This document shows, in pieces, positions 9,569 to 16,980 of a stretch of 41,423 nt of DNA. Both the position numbers and the translations under genes were made by a program. Under the pieces are notes generated by a model, which was not told the origin of the DNA, did no database searches, and saw nothing but the letters and a program-made list of their open reading frames with translations. Origin of the DNA: Methanobrevibacter sp. (GTDB taxonomy: Archaea > Methanobacteriota > Methanobacteria > Methanobacteriales > Methanobacteriaceae); assembly GCA_017434555.1 (NCBI GenBank), contig JAFRFB010000054.1, positions 1-41,423 of the forward strand, given 5' to 3'. Each line of letters begins with the position of its first letter. Position 1 is the first letter of the stretch.

Positions 9569-10057
9569 TTAATTTTTCTTTTTTAATATTAAAATGCCGC
9601 AACCAACACCAACAATTAATCCAATTACTATTCCAATGGCTAATGGTAGTCCAAAGCTATTTCCTTCTTGGCTGCTGCCTGTTGGAGCATTCATTATGTT
9701 ATTTAATCCTTGTAATATTGTATCATTTGTAACATTATCAACGACTATAATTCTATTTGATACTTCCTTATGATTTTTTAAAAAGTCATTAGCAGTATCC
9801 TGATATGCTACAAGCAGTATTCTTTTATTTGTATTGTTAAGACTATGTTCTAGGATGTGTGCTACTTCGTCTTCGGAAGTGAATTTGTAAACACTTATGT
9901 TTTTTCCATTTGCATCAGCTATGTCTTTTACAAGTTGTCCATTAGTTTCATTTGCAATAACCATAGTGTCTGCGGTAACATCAACACCATGTGCTGATAT
10001 TGCAGCCATTGTTAAAAATAAAATTAATGGTATAATTAATATTTTTAAATTTTTCAT
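9569..10057 (-). CDS. Small two-anchor extracytoplasmic protein next to CbiM-like component
   Basis: A 162-residue protein with an N-terminal hydrophobic signal or anchor (residues about 4-22, ending AISAHG), an exported region of about 110 residues that looks alpha/beta (TMVIANETNG, RILLVAYQDTAN, RIIVVDNVTN), and a C-terminal membrane helix (LPLAIGIVIGLIVGVGCG) followed by KKKN. Its GGTGA ribosome site overlaps the stop of the CbiM-like gene ten bases upstream, so the two are translationally linked. The topology (helix, external loop, helix) recalls CbiN/NikN/NikL accessory subunits of nickel and cobalt ECF transporters, but I see no sequence motif of those families. The accessory role is inferred from position and topology only. 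Confidence 0.75.
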   Translation of the reverse strand: MKNLKILIIPLILFLTMAAISAHGVDVTADTMVIANETNGQLVKDIADANGKNISVYKFTSEDEVAHILEHSLNNTNKRILLVAYQDTANDFLKNHKEVSNRIIVVDNVTNDTILQGLNNIMNAPTGSSQEGNSFGLPLAIGIVIGLIVGVGCGILILKKKN

Positions 10058-10067
10058 TTATTATCAC

Positions 10068-10691
10068 CTATATTTTTTTCATTTCTATTATTTCAGGTTT
10101 TATTTGTTCAATTGCAGTAATTATTATTGTATTTGCAAACCCTTCTATTATTGATATGAATAAATAGAATGGAATTAAAGTTGCGAGAAGCACATCAAAA
10201 TTCATTGCACCGGAAATTAATAATATTGCCACTTGTCCAAAAGTAGCTGCCATTATTCCAATTATTGTTGATGCAAAAATTGCAAATTTTTTATTCAAAT
10301 CGTCAAATAATTTATAAAATCCATAGCATACAAAGGACAATATTAATCCCATAACTATGAAATTTGCACCTAATATTGTAATTCCGCCCATATTAAGTAA
10401 AATTGCCTGTGCCAGTAGACTTATAAATGAAACGATGTTTGAAGTTAGTGGACCAAGCAAAATTGCTACAAGAGGGATTAAAAAGAAGTGTATTGGAACT
10501 CCTAAAGGTGAAGGAATTGATAATGAAGTTACTGTAATTGTAAAAACGCTAAAAATAGCAATTGAAATTATTCTTTTTTCTTTTTTCTCATCTTTTGAAA
10601 ATTTATAAAAGAAAATACTTATTATTATAAATGTAATGATCCAATAAATAATTGCTTGATTTAACGGTACTATTCCATCGGGTAAATGCAT
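10068..10691 (-). CDS. CbiM/NikM-like ECF transporter substrate-specific component
   Basis: A 207-residue membrane protein with about six hydrophobic segments. It starts MHLPDGI, the hallmark N-terminus of CbiM/NikM, where the backbone and His2 of the free N-terminus help coordinate Ni2+ or Co2+. The segment VPIHFFLIPLVAILLGP aligns with the conserved mid-protein histidine region. It is therefore a predicted nickel or cobalt binding component of an energy-coupling factor importer. GGTGG lies just before the ATG. No CbiQ (T component) or CbiO (ATPase) gene is in the window. Either these are encoded elsewhere or the unit works alone, as has been reported for some CbiMN proteins. Metal specificity cannot be read from the sequence. 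Confidence 0.85.
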   Translation of the reverse strand: MHLPDGIVPLNQAIIYWIITFIIISIFFYKFSKDEKKEKRIISIAIFSVFTITVTSLSIPSPLGVPIHFFLIPLVAILLGPLTSNIVSFISLLAQAILLNMGGITILGANFIVMGLILSFVCYGFYKLFDDLNKKFAIFASTIIGIMAATFGQVAILLISGAMNFDVLLATLIPFYLFISIIEGFANTIIITAIEQIKPEIIEMKKI

Positions 10692-10774
10692 TTAACCACC
10701 TTTGTTCATATACATATTTGGATTATTACTTATATAAATTAATTTATTACTATTTTATTTATTTTTTGACTTTA

Positions 10775-10783
10775 AGTATTACT
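10775..10783. promoter_or_regulatory. AGTATTACT motif, copy 1
   Basis: A nine-base near-palindrome, AGTA-T-TACT. It lies about 40 bases upstream of the leftward TATA-like element and 58 bases from copy 2. It is a candidate operator half of a pair; the binding protein is unknown. Confidence 0.45.
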
Positions 10784-10790
10784 TTTATAT

Positions 10791-10829
10791 AACAATGTTA
10801 ACCTATCTTGTTTTATTGTTAACGATGTT
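10791..10829. promoter_or_regulatory. Inverted repeat AACAATGTTAAC-N15-GTTAACGATGTT
   Basis: The two 12-base arms match as inverted repeats at 10 of 12 positions, and both contain the palindrome GTTAAC. The 15-base spacer is long, the arrangement used by ribbon-helix-helix metal regulators such as NikR. I do not claim a match to a known NikR consensus. It sits between AGTATTACT copies 1 and 2. Confidence 0.45.
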
Positions 10830-10832
10830 AAA

Positions 10833-10841
10833 AGTATTACT
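10833..10841. promoter_or_regulatory. AGTATTACT motif, copy 2
   Basis: Identical to copy 1 and immediately right of the inverted repeat. Both copies share the flanks AAGTATTACTTT. Confidence 0.45.
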
Positions 10842-11011
10842 TTATTTTTCTTTCAGTTTTTTATAGTAATTTTTAGTTTATAGGATTAATAACTAATTTA
10901 AATATTATTTACCTATTTGAATTTTGATATTTTTTAATTTGAAACTTTTTTAATAGATTATATTTAAATTAAATCTTTTTAATTGATTTATTTTTTTTTC
11001 AATTTTCAAAA

Positions 11012-11020
11012 AGTAATACT
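11012..11020. promoter_or_regulatory. AGTAATACT motif, copy 3 (reverse orientation)
   Basis: The exact reverse complement of copies 1 and 2, flanked AAAAAGTAATACTTTTTT so that the symmetry extends to about 18 bases. It is 53 bases from copy 4. Confidence 0.45.
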
Positions 11021-11064
11021 TTTTTATAAATTTTTATTTATTTAATAATAATTAAATATATATT

Positions 11065-11073
11065 AGTATTACT
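11065..11073. promoter_or_regulatory. AGTATTACT motif, copy 4
   Basis: This copy abuts the TATA-like element AAATATATATTA of the rightward gene, a position where a bound protein would block initiation. Copies 3 and 4 repeat the roughly 55-base spacing of copies 1 and 2. Confidence 0.45.
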
Positions 11074-11147
11074 ACAAATATTCAGTTGTATTCCTGTTAT
11101 TCACTTAACAGAATACAATTAACTTATATAATTATGGGGGCAAAAAT

Positions 11148-14033
11148 ATTAGAAAAGAGTTTTTTTTACTTGCATCTATTGCAATGTTAGCATTATTTGT
11201 AATGGGTGGCGTATCTGCTCAAGATGTTGATGTTGTTTCTGATGCTTCTGATATTCTTTCTGTTGATTCTAGTTTATCTCAAGTTAATGTCGATGTAAAC
11301 TATGAATTTACTAATGATAATGGAAAGATAACACCAACATTTAATATTGTGAATAATACAGTCAAATCTCAAGATTATGATACTGCAAATAAATATTATA
11401 ATGTTTTGATTAATTCCACTGTTTCTGATAAAGTTAATATTTCTGTTTCTGCACCTGGATACATTACTCAATATATGATTGTAGATGTAAATTCTAAATC
11501 ACCTATAACAGTTGATATGATGGCCAGTGAAAGTTATAAATTAGGTTATGAAATTACTGCTACAGCAGATTCATTACTTGATTTTAAAAATGCAGATGAA
11601 GTATTAGCTATCACTACTGCTGGTGTACCAAAATTAAATGGTCAAACTAGTGAGGCTGCAATAGATGGAATTCTTAACTATGCTACTGGATATATCTCTT
11701 ATGGTAGAGGTAACATCTTAATGTTACGTCAAACTGCTGTTGATCCTATTGATTTCTGTTTTGTAGTTAAAAAAGGCAATGAATTAAATGCTGCAATTTT
11801 CACAAATGGAAATAAAAAAGAGGTTTATCTCGGTACTATATCAGAGAATATGACTACTTCACAATGGAATGCTTTATATAAAGCAGTTGGTGGTGAAAAT
11901 GCATTTTCATTCGCTAGTTTAGCTAATGGATGGTATGATGGTGTTACATTTGATGTATTACAAGAAGCAGCTTTTCACGGACACATCTGTGAAGGAACCC
12001 TTGGCGGATACACAATTACTAAAGCATTACTCCAATATTATCCTCCAATTCAAGAAACTGGTAATGGAAAACAATCTCCTGGTGATATTACTTCTTATAA
12101 AGTATTAGGTATTCCGGGTGATTCAGCTAATGATGCTGTAATCTTTTTCTTAGATGCAACATCTGGTAAAACTTCTTATGTTGGTTTTAACACTACTTCA
12201 ACTGGTGCAACTGAAAAAATGATTGGTTTCATTCGTTGGAATGGTCAAACTAACAAAGGAACAATTATTGTAATGGAATATGATTCTGATGCTAATAAAG
12301 CATTGTTCGAAAAAGAAACCGGAATTACTGGTGATGGTAGTTTAGAACAATTAAAATATAATACCTGGTGGATTAACAGAATTTACAATGATCCTGCTAG
12401 CCTTGTTAATGTTTTAATTGAAAAAGAAGGTTTAACTAAAGAACAATATTTATATTTAGTCGGAGTCGCTGATGATGATGAAGATGAAGACGGTCATGTA
12501 ATTAACGCTACTAATTCTCATGGTTTAGATTATACTTATATCCAAAGCTTAGATTTACCAAATGCTGTTCGTGACAATGCTATTGCAAATAAAGGTTCAT
12601 TAACTTACGATGACTTCAAATCAATTGGTCAAAAAGCTGCAAGTACTGCTAAATCAATTTATGAAAATGAATTAGGTGTAAAAATCTATAAAGACATGCC
12701 TAATTTAATGGTTATGACTTCTGCAGGTTATGTAATGATTAATGAACAATCAACCGAAGCATGTTGGGATGGTTTATTTGAAGAGTTAGGTTCTAGATTA
12801 TCAAGAAAAACTTTATTGCCTGATCATAAAGCAATATGGACTCCATTATGGTTTAATTTTGTTTTAAATCTAGATGATGGTTCTTTAATGAGTATTTATA
12901 TGAGATATAATGAAGATGGAACATTTTACATCGGTGAATACAATGGAACTAATGTTTACAACATTAATATGACAACTTTAAATAATTCTGAGATTTCCGG
13001 AGGTATAAGTAAAGAAGCTTATATTGATGGTAATTACTTCAGTATTCAAAGTATTTCTAACGCATGGTCTGCAGGACCTGCATTTGATCAAATAATGTCA
13101 TTCTTGTTCCACAATCATGCATGTCCGGGTGTACAACCAGGATTCTTCATGGTTGATTATATCCATGAAAATTTCCCTCTTAACGAGAATCAATCTTACA
13201 TATATATCGCTAATGAGCAATATTGTAAAGATGACAGTCTGGAATACATTTTAGATGTATCTCCTGGTCTTGGTAATTATTTCGTTCAAAAGTTAACAAG
13301 TGATGAATATAAAGGTTCAGACGATTTTGATGAAGAAGGTATATTAATTATTTGGGATTCAGCTAATAATATTGGACAAGCAGTTTCACTCTCTTATAAA
13401 TGGCCAAGTCCTGATTTAAGTGCTTATGCTACTTCCGAATCAAAAAGAGCTGCTCAAATTCAAGCATTCATTGACTTGTATAACGGAAGAGAAAATCCTA
13501 TTGTAACTGAGAATTATCATAAAGTTGGTCACAATGACAGTAGATGGATTACTCAAGATCAATTAAATACTATACTTTCTGGAGGGGAAGGCAGTAGTCT
13601 CAAATACTTAAGAAGTTTGGAAGATATTAGTAAAGAAGATTTACTTAAACAAATTGCTGAAAGTAATAATCAAAATAGTAATTCAGAGTCTAATAGTACT
13701 AATTCAAATACTAATACTAATACTGATTCAAATACTAATTCTAATACTAATTCAAATAATCAAGCTATTCCTTCTAGAGCCACTACCCAAGGTAGTTCTT
13801 CTAGTGTGGGTGTTTCAAGCAATCCAGTAAGTACTTCTGCTTCTGCTTCTGAAGACACATCATCTGAGAGCCCATCTGACGATGATTCATCTGATGATGC
13901 AAAATCATATGAAATTGATAAAAAACCTTCTGTTACTAAATCTAGCAGCAATAATCTTATTTATGCAGTTATTGGAGCTTTGATTATCGGTGTCTTATTT
14001 GGTTTAGGATATATGAGAACTAGAAAAGAATAA
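11148..14033 (+). CDS. Cell-surface protein with two FmdE-like modules
   Basis: Counted from the preferred ATT start, the protein has 961 residues. It has a signal peptide (RKEFFLL then a hydrophobic run, cleavage after GVSA), two homologous modules of roughly 330-380 residues, a Ser/Asn/Thr-rich stalk (about 830-925) and a C-terminal membrane helix with RTRKE. Each module ends in an FmdE-like segment, H277-G-H-I-C281-E-G and H655-N-H-A-C659-P-G, and begins with a related block (TTAGVPKLNGQTSEAAIDG and TSAGYVMINEQSTEACWDG). FmdE proteins are named for the molybdenum formylmethanofuran dehydrogenase operon and bind metal through such His/Cys motifs. A surface form implies metal capture, not methanogenesis itself. 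The first in-frame ATG (11184) would cut off the basic part of the signal peptide; GGGGG at 11136-11140 is correctly spaced for the ATT at 11148. Metal role inferred. Confidence 0.85.
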   Translation: MRKEFFLLASIAMLALFVMGGVSAQDVDVVSDASDILSVDSSLSQVNVDVNYEFTNDNGKITPTFNIVNNTVKSQDYDTANKYYNVLINSTVSDKVNISVSAPGYITQYMIVDVNSKSPITVDMMASESYKLGYEITATADSLLDFKNADEVLAITTAGVPKLNGQTSEAAIDGILNYATGYISYGRGNILMLRQTAVDPIDFCFVVKKGNELNAAIFTNGNKKEVYLGTISENMTTSQWNALYKAVGGENAFSFASLANGWYDGVTFDVLQEAAFHGHICEGTLGGYTITKALLQYYPPIQETGNGKQSPGDITSYKVLGIPGDSANDAVIFFLDATSGKTSYVGFNTTSTGATEKMIGFIRWNGQTNKGTIIVMEYDSDANKALFEKETGITGDGSLEQLKYNTWWINRIYNDPASLVNVLIEKEGLTKEQYLYLVGVADDDEDEDGHVINATNSHGLDYTYIQSLDLPNAVRDNAIANKGSLTYDDFKSIGQKAASTAKSIYENELGVKIYKDMPNLMVMTSAGYVMINEQSTEACWDGLFEELGSRLSRKTLLPDHKAIWTPLWFNFVLNLDDGSLMSIYMRYNEDGTFYIGEYNGTNVYNINMTTLNNSEISGGISKEAYIDGNYFSIQSISNAWSAGPAFDQIMSFLFHNHACPGVQPGFFMVDYIHENFPLNENQSYIYIANEQYCKDDSLEYILDVSPGLGNYFVQKLTSDEYKGSDDFDEEGILIIWDSANNIGQAVSLSYKWPSPDLSAYATSESKRAAQIQAFIDLYNGRENPIVTENYHKVGHNDSRWITQDQLNTILSGGEGSSLKYLRSLEDISKEDLLKQIAESNNQNSNSESNSTNSNTNTNTDSNTNSNTNSNNQAIPSRATTQGSSSSVGVSSNPVSTSASASEDTSSESPSDDDSSDDAKSYEIDKKPSVTKSSSNNLIYAVIGALIIGVLFGLGYMRTRKE

Positions 14034-14043
14034 ACTTTCCATT

Positions 14044-14084
14044 AAAGATTATTTTTATAATAATCTTTATCTTTTTTATTTTTT
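14044..14084 (+). terminator. Hairpin terminator after the FmdE-like gene
   Basis: A ten-base perfect stem AAAGATTATT/AATAATCTTT with a five-base loop, followed by two T-runs. It lies just before the ribosome site of the next gene. Confidence 0.7.
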
Positions 14085-14094
14085 GGTGATTTTT

Positions 14095-14574
14095 ATGAAA
14101 TATAAATATTTGGCAATTTTGATTACAATTGTATTTATTTTATCATGTTTTAATTGTGTATTTGCCCATCCGGGTCATGGAACCGAATATGTTGAGGAAG
14201 TTTCATCATCTAGTTCAAGTTCTTCTCAATCAGTTCCTTCTACTACATCCGGAAGTGAATCCAGTCATTCTTCAAGTTCTGGTTCAAGTTCTTCTCAGTC
14301 TTCTAGTTCAAGTTCTGGTTCAAGTTCTGGCGGTAGTTCTAGTAGTGGTTCCAGCCAGTCTTCAGGCAATAATGGCGTTGGAAGTTCTGATGCATCGAAT
14401 AATGATAATTTAAATAATAATTCAAATAATCAATCTGCAGTTAATAATTCTAGTAATAATCAGGTAGTTAATGAAGATTCCCAATTATTTAGCATGACAA
14501 ATATTATAATCATGCTTTTTGCATTAATAATTGGATTTTTAGCAGTAATATTAATATTTAAATTATTTAAGTAG
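14095..14574 (+). CDS. Ser-rich membrane-anchored surface protein with N-terminal HPGHG
   Basis: 159 residues. A clear signal peptide ends CVFA, so the predicted mature protein begins HPGHGTEYVEE. An extended Ser-rich stalk follows (about residues 35-105, with Gly, Gln and His), then an Asn-rich stretch and a C-terminal membrane helix (IIIMLFALIIGFLAVILIF) ending in KLFK. A mature His-Pro-Gly-His start is also seen in the HupE/UreJ metal permeases, so a metal-binding tip on a flexible anchored stalk is plausible. GGTGAT lies five bases before the ATG and selects this start over a TTG four codons upstream. Regulation is probably shared with the FmdE-like gene by read-through, although a strong terminator lies between them. 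Confidence 0.75.
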   Translation: MKYKYLAILITIVFILSCFNCVFAHPGHGTEYVEEVSSSSSSSSQSVPSTTSGSESSHSSSSGSSSSQSSSSSSGSSSGGSSSSGSSQSSGNNGVGSSDASNNDNLNNNSNNQSAVNNSSNNQVVNEDSQLFSMTNIIIMLFALIIGFLAVILIFKLFK

Positions 14575-16222: not shown

Positions 16223-16287
16223 TAGTAAATCTTATTTTATATAAAAAACAAAATATTTCATGTTATATATCTTTGGAGGATTATAAT

Positions 16288-16980
16288 ATGACTGATGTAA
16301 AAGCTGGTGTTGAATATAAGATTAATGTGGATGGTAATTCTTTTCTGCTTGACAGTAAAAAATACCAACTACTTGAATCTATTTTAGACACAGGTTCCTT
16401 AACGGAATCCGCTAAACTAGTAAAAATCTCTTATAGGACTGCACTAAACTATATCGACAAAATAGAATCAAATTTACAAGTTAAAATTGTAAGCACTTCT
16501 AAAGGAGGTAAAGGTGGTGGTGGGGGCACTACTTTAACCGAAGAAGGATATTCTATTTTAAAAGAATGTAAAAAAATTAATGCAATTATGGAACTTCATA
16601 AGGACGTTAATGAAATCGAAGCTGAAGTTTTAGCCATTGATCAGTCTAAAGGGGTAATGACTGTTAGAATGAGTAGTTTCGATATTAACATTCCTTTAAA
16701 TAAGAACTACGAAGTTGGAGATAAGGTTCTGGCATTAATCAGTTATGATAATATCTTTTTGATGCTTGAACCGCAAAAGTCAAGTATCCGTAATATAATT
16801 AAGGGTACTATTGTTGAAATGAGACTCAATAATGAGATAATTCGTGTTAATGTAGACGTTGACGGAGTTAATATCTATTCTGATATTACTGTGTCTGCTG
16901 AAAAAGAATTGAATCTCACTATTGGTAAAGAGATATATATTGGATTTAAAGCGATGTCTGTGGCTACTTTGAAGTTATAA
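16288..16980 (+). CDS. ModE-type molybdate/tungstate-responsive transcriptional regulator
   Basis: 230 residues. Residues about 5-110 are a ModE-like winged helix-turn-helix (LLESILDTGSLTESAKLVKISYRTALNYI in pieces), with the diagnostic glycine-rich wing GGKGGGGGTTLTEEG. Residues about 115-170 and 170-230 are two TOBE/Mop-like beta modules that in ModE bind oxyanions at the dimer interface. The upstream TTG is part of the ribosome site TTGGAGGA, so translation begins at the ATG at 16288. A TATA-like TTTTATATAAAA lies about 45-55 bases upstream. It is followed 15 bases later by a ferredoxin gene, suggesting an operon. Formylmethanofuran dehydrogenase genes (Mo or W enzymes) are plausible targets; the ligand and targets are inferred. 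Confidence 0.9.
   Translation: MTDVKAGVEYKINVDGNSFLLDSKKYQLLESILDTGSLTESAKLVKISYRTALNYIDKIESNLQVKIVSTSKGGKGGGGGTTLTEEGYSILKECKKINAIMELHKDVNEIEAEVLAIDQSKGVMTVRMSSFDINIPLNKNYEVGDKVLALISYDNIFLMLEPQKSSIRNIIKGTIVEMRLNNEIIRVNVDVDGVNIYSDITVSAEKELNLTIGKEIYIGFKAMSVATLKL

Follow-up and report, generated by a model that had tools for sequence, protein, structure and literature searches.

On balance, the four-gene cluster at positions 9569-14574 of the window (the whole 41,423-nucleotide stretch of Methanobrevibacter DNA analyzed) is probably a nickel-regulated surface acquisition module that feeds a NikM variant, judging from sequence comparisons. The genes flank one divergent control region: leftward lie a CbiM/NikM-type gene and, directly after it, the gene for a partner protein, P4, and rightward lie FmdE2 and then the gene for an HPGHG protein (Table 1). 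An earlier note on this DNA had placed four genes and a shared control region here, with a CbiM/NikM-type component on the left and, on the right, a surface-anchored protein with two FmdE-like sites and a Ser-stalked protein with a mature HPGHG N-terminus, and all of these are confirmed by the family matches and, for the last, by an HPGHG sequence following a signal peptide that ends in A. The note's P4, a helix-loop-helix protein, is replaced in the AlphaFold model by a signal/TM helix, a compact alpha/beta domain and a TM helix, and its statement that three of the four proteins carry His/Cys motifs gives way to conserved His or Cys in all four, P4 included. The host genome (G000) comprises 3.15 Mb in 146 contigs and has two other CbiM-family genes, one in an operon with PDGLE (contig C91) and one in an operon with CbiN (C15). 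A ModE-like regulator (HTH_1 + TOBE) is encoded close to the module at 16273-16980. It was set aside as the module's controller, being nearby in the closest relatives only, and is probably unrelated to the module. A flippase gene (14660) and a flavodoxin-like gene (8958) are neighbors that vary by clade.

Table 1. Features of the four-gene cluster and its control region, in window coordinates.
Feature	Position	Strand	Remarks
P4	9569..10057	-	162 aa; signal/TM helix, alpha/beta ectodomain, C-terminal TM helix (28 orthologues, AlphaFold)
NikM/CbiM-type ECF substrate-binding component, MHLPDG start	10068..10691	-	PF01891 E 2.8e-42; 4M58 homologue
Divergent control region	10692..11147		456 bp, 15% GC
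Putative regulator site, copy 1, AAGTATTACTT	10774..10784	+	
Second palindrome TAACAATGTTAA	10790..10801	+	Further copy TAACGATGTTAA at 10820-10831
Putative regulator site, copy 2, AAGTATTACTT	10832..10842	+	
Putative regulator site, copy 3, AAGTATTACTT	11011..11021	-	
Putative regulator site, copy 4, TAGTATTACTA	11064..11074	+	
FmdE2: secreted, stalked, C-terminally anchored, two FmdE domains	11148..14033	+	PF02663 E 1e-21; AlphaFold pTM 0.78
FmdE domain 1, FHGHIC	11973..12389	+	Three metal ligands, no fourth Cys
FmdE domain 2, FHNHAC + C693	13107..13370	+	All four metal ligands of 2GLZ
FmdE2 Ser/Asn-rich stalk, (S/A)YE(V/I)xK motif, TM anchor	13677..14030	+	Common to CobN-like surface proteins
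HPGHG protein: signal peptide, Ser-rich stalk, C-terminal TM helix	14095..14574	+	Mature HPGHG from 14167

The divergent region carries a cluster of palindromic sites that is absent from the earlier note. Four AGTATTACT/AGTAATACT sites are found, at 10775, 10833, 11012 and 11065 (0.011 expected, P about 7e-10); the 9-mer AGTATTACT was picked from this region itself, and the independent tests are therefore its occurrences in other places. Upstream of FmdE2 it is present in 31 of 39 regions, the window included, compared with 6 of 152 background regions; this corresponds to 63 copies in the 39 regions (2.7 per kb) and 6 in the 152 remaining promoter regions from these loci (0.15 per kb). For eleven control words matched in composition and symmetry, the counts were 2 upstream of FmdE2 and 15 in the remaining regions. 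Sites are most commonly 53 bp apart, and 32 bp is also seen, both near whole helical turns. Over the whole host genome, the exact 11-mer AAGTATTACTT occurs 32 times, compared with 9 for the reversed word; when one mismatch is allowed, whole-genome counts show no enrichment over the reversed word, so that only exact sites and clusters are enriched. In another genome, G114, the exact 11-mer is found 23 times against 9 for the control word, but unclustered, judging from a list of the exact sites. The core of the second palindrome, CATTGTTA, is upstream of FmdE2 in 19 of 39 regions and in 1 of the 152 others. The full palindrome TAACAATGTTAA was rejected as part of a nickel regulon: it is missing from the other nickel-gene loci searched, and thus cannot be attributed to that regulon.

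Elsewhere in the host genome, the sites precede a set of nickel genes, among others. Clusters or pairs lie before nikM-PDGLE-cbiQ and between hcgG and hmd (both on C91), upstream of two genes of C117 (one nikA-like, of the SBP_bac_5 type, and one a nikD-like ABC gene), and ahead of an fdhA-fdhB-flpD operon (C112) and of a CPC P-type ATPase gene whose product has a His-rich tail (C15). The cobN-DUF2162-ExbB-DUF2149 operon on C81 is preceded by two copies with one mismatch each, spaced 32 bp apart, and no site was found upstream of the Co-type cbiMNQO operon of this genome. About half of the 32 exact sites lie elsewhere, mostly singly, and some are intragenic. In G042, a complete genome in one contig of 1,853,160 bases, exact sites recur ahead of nikM-PDGLE-cbiQ, cobN, FmdE2/CbiM, a nikA-like gene and an fdhA-like operon, and another lies upstream of a gene pair containing nikR. 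NikR is present as one copy in the host genome, and with the shared site standing before nickel genes in two genomes it is the candidate regulator. Hmd is induced by nickel limitation in Methanothermobacter marburgensis (PMC3087415). Because the sites are common to nickel genes in two genomes and hmd responds to nickel, nickel is the best-supported metal for the module. The single surface metal-capture system proposed in the earlier note is supported in part: synteny speaks for it (see below), and its metal, left broad there, can be narrowed to nickel by regulon membership in the two genomes.

In the site-bearing operons of C112 (L099/L039) and of G042 (L162), the fdhA-like gene is truncated and is accompanied by an FrhB/FdhB-like gene and flpD. 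Under nickel shortage, this unit may serve for electron transfer that spares nickel. In a lauric-acid transcriptome of M. ruminantium, a cbiM, nik genes and an ExbB gene rise together (PMC5816558); the locus tags are unmatched to the module, and this observation is given no weight.

The NikM-like protein aligns over residues 2-201 with positions 1-205 of PF01891 (145.3 bits, cut-off 23.1). Its M1, H2 and H68 are invariant in 26 sequences; the second His ligand of the 4M58 protein is H67. The NCBIfam models nearest to it bear the name cobalt transporter CbiM, and CobN takes its name from cobalt chelation, which would fit a module for cobalt acquisition, with the CbiM-type protein importing Co2+ for corrinoids and the CobN-like neighbor handling cobamides. 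This is improbable, however, as the scores fall far under the cut-offs of the cobalt CbiM equivalogs (at best 105.9 against 219, and 69.7 against 184.15 for TIGR00123), and the sites mark the PDGLE-type nickel operon, hmd and nik genes and not the CbiN-type cobalt operon.

P4 matched no family in Pfam or NCBIfam, being neither PDGLE (PF13190) nor CbiN (PF02553). His23, Gly24, His67 and His71 are invariant in its 28 orthologues. A compact four-stranded alpha/beta domain is predicted between the N-terminal hydrophobic helix and the C-terminal TM helix (mean pLDDT 83), and a fold search with the model gave nothing below E 0.026. The predicted mature N-terminus, HGVDVT, begins at the invariant His23-Gly24; this cleavage site was predicted from the small residue preceding the invariant His. 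P4 is a candidate functional substitute for NikN/CbiN. The cluster resembles the NikMNQO/NikKMLQO systems (PMC2667541; 4M58) in having a NikM with the MH start and His2/His68, and a small membrane partner with an extracytoplasmic part, like NikN. It differs in that the partner is not PDGLE/NikN or CbiN, in its additional FmdE2 and HPGHG genes, and in the lack of NikQ/NikO (EcfT/A) genes at the window locus; cbiQ/cbiO are on C91 and C15. At one other locus (L087), a CbiQ-like gene is divergent from FmdE2. NikMN1QO and NikMN2QO were the sole such systems found in archaea by a survey (PMC2667541).

The HPGHG protein is 30% Ser and ends in a hydrophobic helix. Among 35 distinct loci with the pattern HPGH[G/S], the motif always stands behind an Ala or Ser that ends a hydrophobic segment, and in some more distant homologues at the same gene position it is replaced by AHD...PHSHG. 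Some HupE/UreJ nickel permeases have an HPGH-type mature N-terminus after the signal peptide. As the HPGHG protein, unlike these, has only one TM helix, at its C-terminus, and lacks a permease domain, the likeness is a lead only.

FmdE2 scores 77.9 bits against PF02663 (cut-off 22.9) in two stretches, and much of its 961 residues lies outside both. The best PDB fold match to its model is 2glz (probability 1.00, E 0.017); a PDB sequence search gave one weak low-complexity match only. Four residues, His15, His17, Cys19 and Cys55, bind a Zn/Ni ion in the FmdE structure 2GLZ (PMC2954224). The corresponding domain 2 ligands of FmdE2, H655, H657 and C659, are present in 40 of 41 copies and C693 in all 41, and H277, H279 and C281 of domain 1, where the fourth Cys is absent, are likewise present in 40; the exception is a distant paralogue (L093). 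The crystals contained more Zn than Ni (PMC2954224). FmdE2 thus shares with the FmdE family (2GLZ, 2GVI; PMC2954224) the fold, the FHGHxC motif, the fourth Cys in domain 2 and metal-transporter neighbors, but is set apart from it by being secreted, tandem, stalked and membrane-anchored, by the three-ligand domain 1, and by adjoining an ECF NikM gene and not an fmd operon. The majority of PF02663 genes adjoin metal-ion transporter genes, and a role of FmdE proteins in metal-ion transport has already been suggested (PMC2954224). The sole other FmdE domain in the host genome is in a 189-aa ORF on C65 (L098 6657-10176), which lacks a signal peptide and shares its operon with the genes for a FecCD permease, an ABC ATPase and a Peripla_BP_2 binding protein, a further link between FmdE and transporters.

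The ATG at 11184 is probably not the start of FmdE2. The most likely start, from the sequence context, is an ATT codon at 11148, preceded by GGGGGC and seven bases downstream of the GGGGG, which yields a complete signal peptide (RKEFFLLASIAMLALFVMGGVSA). At the same place, 24 of 45 FmdE2 copies have an ATT behind a Shine-Dalgarno-like sequence, as counted with a pattern rule limited to in-frame codons that come after one. Apparent ATT (AUU) starts are seen for FmdE2 and for both CobN-like surface genes of the host genome, while neighboring genes start with ATG, GTG or TTG; they are found at 11136-11150 of the window, in L054-L078, L080, L082 and L092, at about 3003-3030 of L096 and at the start of a 1588-aa ORF in L157. 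AUU initiation may be a control feature common to FmdE2 and CobN-like genes.

At E 1e-6, 66 of 139 Methanobacteriaceae genomes have homologues of FmdE2, a count that takes in matches to the stalk/anchor region alone, and strong matches (E below 1e-50) are found in 40. P4 is present in 47 of the 139 genomes and in 37 of the 40 with strong FmdE2 matches (Fisher p 5e-21, uncorrected for relatedness). In 41 FmdE2 loci, the HPGHG gene is nearby in 37 and CbiM-P4 in 29, and several of the loci without them stop at contig edges. Synteny beyond this genome had been named beforehand as a test, and the gene group is conserved in nine Methanobacteriaceae genera. The divergent arrangement is that of the window's genus group, and outside it the genes mostly form a single operon in the order FmdE2, HPGHG, CbiM, P4, often extended by DUF2162, ExbB and DUF2149, in that order, and with a CobN-like gene in L080, L082 and L092. 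Among GTDB genome contigs, FmdE2 was found only in Methanobacteriaceae records, including Methanobrevibacter and Methanosphaera, and on two bacterial MAG contigs, which are probably mis-binned.

HPGHG-CbiM-P4 is also found without an adjoining FmdE2, in genus g19 of another family (f3) of the same order. FmdE2 is therefore not essential, being absent from part of the genomes that retain the other three, and may be a later addition to an older three-gene core. It could alternatively be an enzyme, chaperone or sensor at the surface that makes use of Zn/Ni without collecting it, leaving HPGHG-CbiM-P4 as the only transport unit. The large part of the protein outside the Pfam matches, the core standing alone in f3/g19, and a ligand, not identified, that was seen at the metal site in a different member of the FmdE family (PMC2954224) are consistent with this. 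Such a role is nonetheless unlikely, given the retention of ligands at two tandem sites in 40-41 of 41 copies and the nearly fixed neighbors of the gene.

In the nickel-acquisition module that we favor, nickel shortage would cause a nickel-responsive regulator, for which NikR is the candidate, to release the divergent promoters. Once exported, FmdE2 and the HPGHG protein would stand on their Ser/Asn-rich stalks in the wall space and hold Ni2+ at their His/Cys and N-terminal-His sites. We infer that the metal would then be handed over to the NikM-type membrane protein, perhaps via the His-bearing ectodomain of P4, which would take the place of the NikN/CbiN of classical systems, and that NikM would import it with an EcfT/A pair, NikQ/NikO, supplied from the nikMNQO operon of a different contig. 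Several observations count against this scheme: the sites also mark a P-type ATPase, and such ATPases are usually exporters; FmdE2 is not in all HPGHG-CbiM-P4 genomes; EcfT/A genes are absent from the cluster; Zn exceeds Ni in FmdE crystals; and the exact 11-mers of G114 are unclustered.

The earlier note does not mention that the module is linked through operons to DUF2162/ExbB/DUF2149 and to a CobN-like surface protein. On C81 the CobN-like gene is in a row with DUF2162, ExbB and DUF2149 genes (PF02514, PF09930, PF01618, PF09919), and the (S/A)YE(V/I)xK stalk anchor of FmdE2 is common to both CobN-like proteins of the host genome. Secreted, stalked CobN-like proteins with this motif, stalk and TM anchor are seen in L096 (C81), L157 (C111), L080, L082 and L119. 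The HmuS heme de-chelatase operon likewise combines CobN with ExbB and DUF2149 (PMC12583661, PMC10434189). The methanogen set resembles the hmu operon of Bacteroidota (PMC12583661, PMC10434189) in that a surface or envelope CobN-like protein is tied, by operon and DNA sites, to ExbB- and DUF2149-type genes; it differs in having no outer membrane or TonB-dependent receptor, and in its ties to NikM, FmdE2 and nickel genes and not to iron.

These similarities would accommodate a more tentative extension of the nickel module, one that does not contradict it, in which the CobN-like protein strips nickel from extracellular nickel tetrapyrroles, such as the F430 of dead methanogens. An ion gradient through ExbB/DUF2149 would drive the stripping, the DUF2162/ExbB/DUF2149 complex cooperating with the module; FmdE2 and the HPGHG protein would catch the released nickel, and NikM would import it. 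The HmuS-like make-up, the shared anchor motif, and the sites common to cobN, DUF2162, ExbB and DUF2149, which in relatives also share the operon, point in this direction. The CobN operon of the window's genome is, however, on another contig, and most HPGHG-CbiM-P4 loci have no nearby CobN gene, and we regard the extension as doubtful.

Nickel is needed for methane production (in F430 and [NiFe] hydrogenases), and little work has addressed its uptake by wall-bearing methanogens. The parts of the module, except P4 and the HPGHG protein, belong to known families. No description of the combination of FmdE with CbiM was found in the literature searched, which consisted mostly of freely accessible papers. 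The nickel transporter of Methanothermobacter was not firmly identified as of PMC3087415, and the use of CobN-like proteins in archaea has been described as unclear (PMC12583661). It is conceivable, at rather long odds, that gut methanogens have a nickel-regulated surface machine in which an ExbB/DUF2149-energized CobN-like de-chelatase frees nickel from scavenged nickel tetrapyrroles (F430), and tandem FmdE domains and N-terminal-His proteins relay it to a NikM variant; if true, archaeal CobN-like proteins would gain a function. Now that the gene set is defined and a probable operator sequence and regulator candidate are at hand, the questions of the nickel transporter and of CobN become testable in cultured methanogens.
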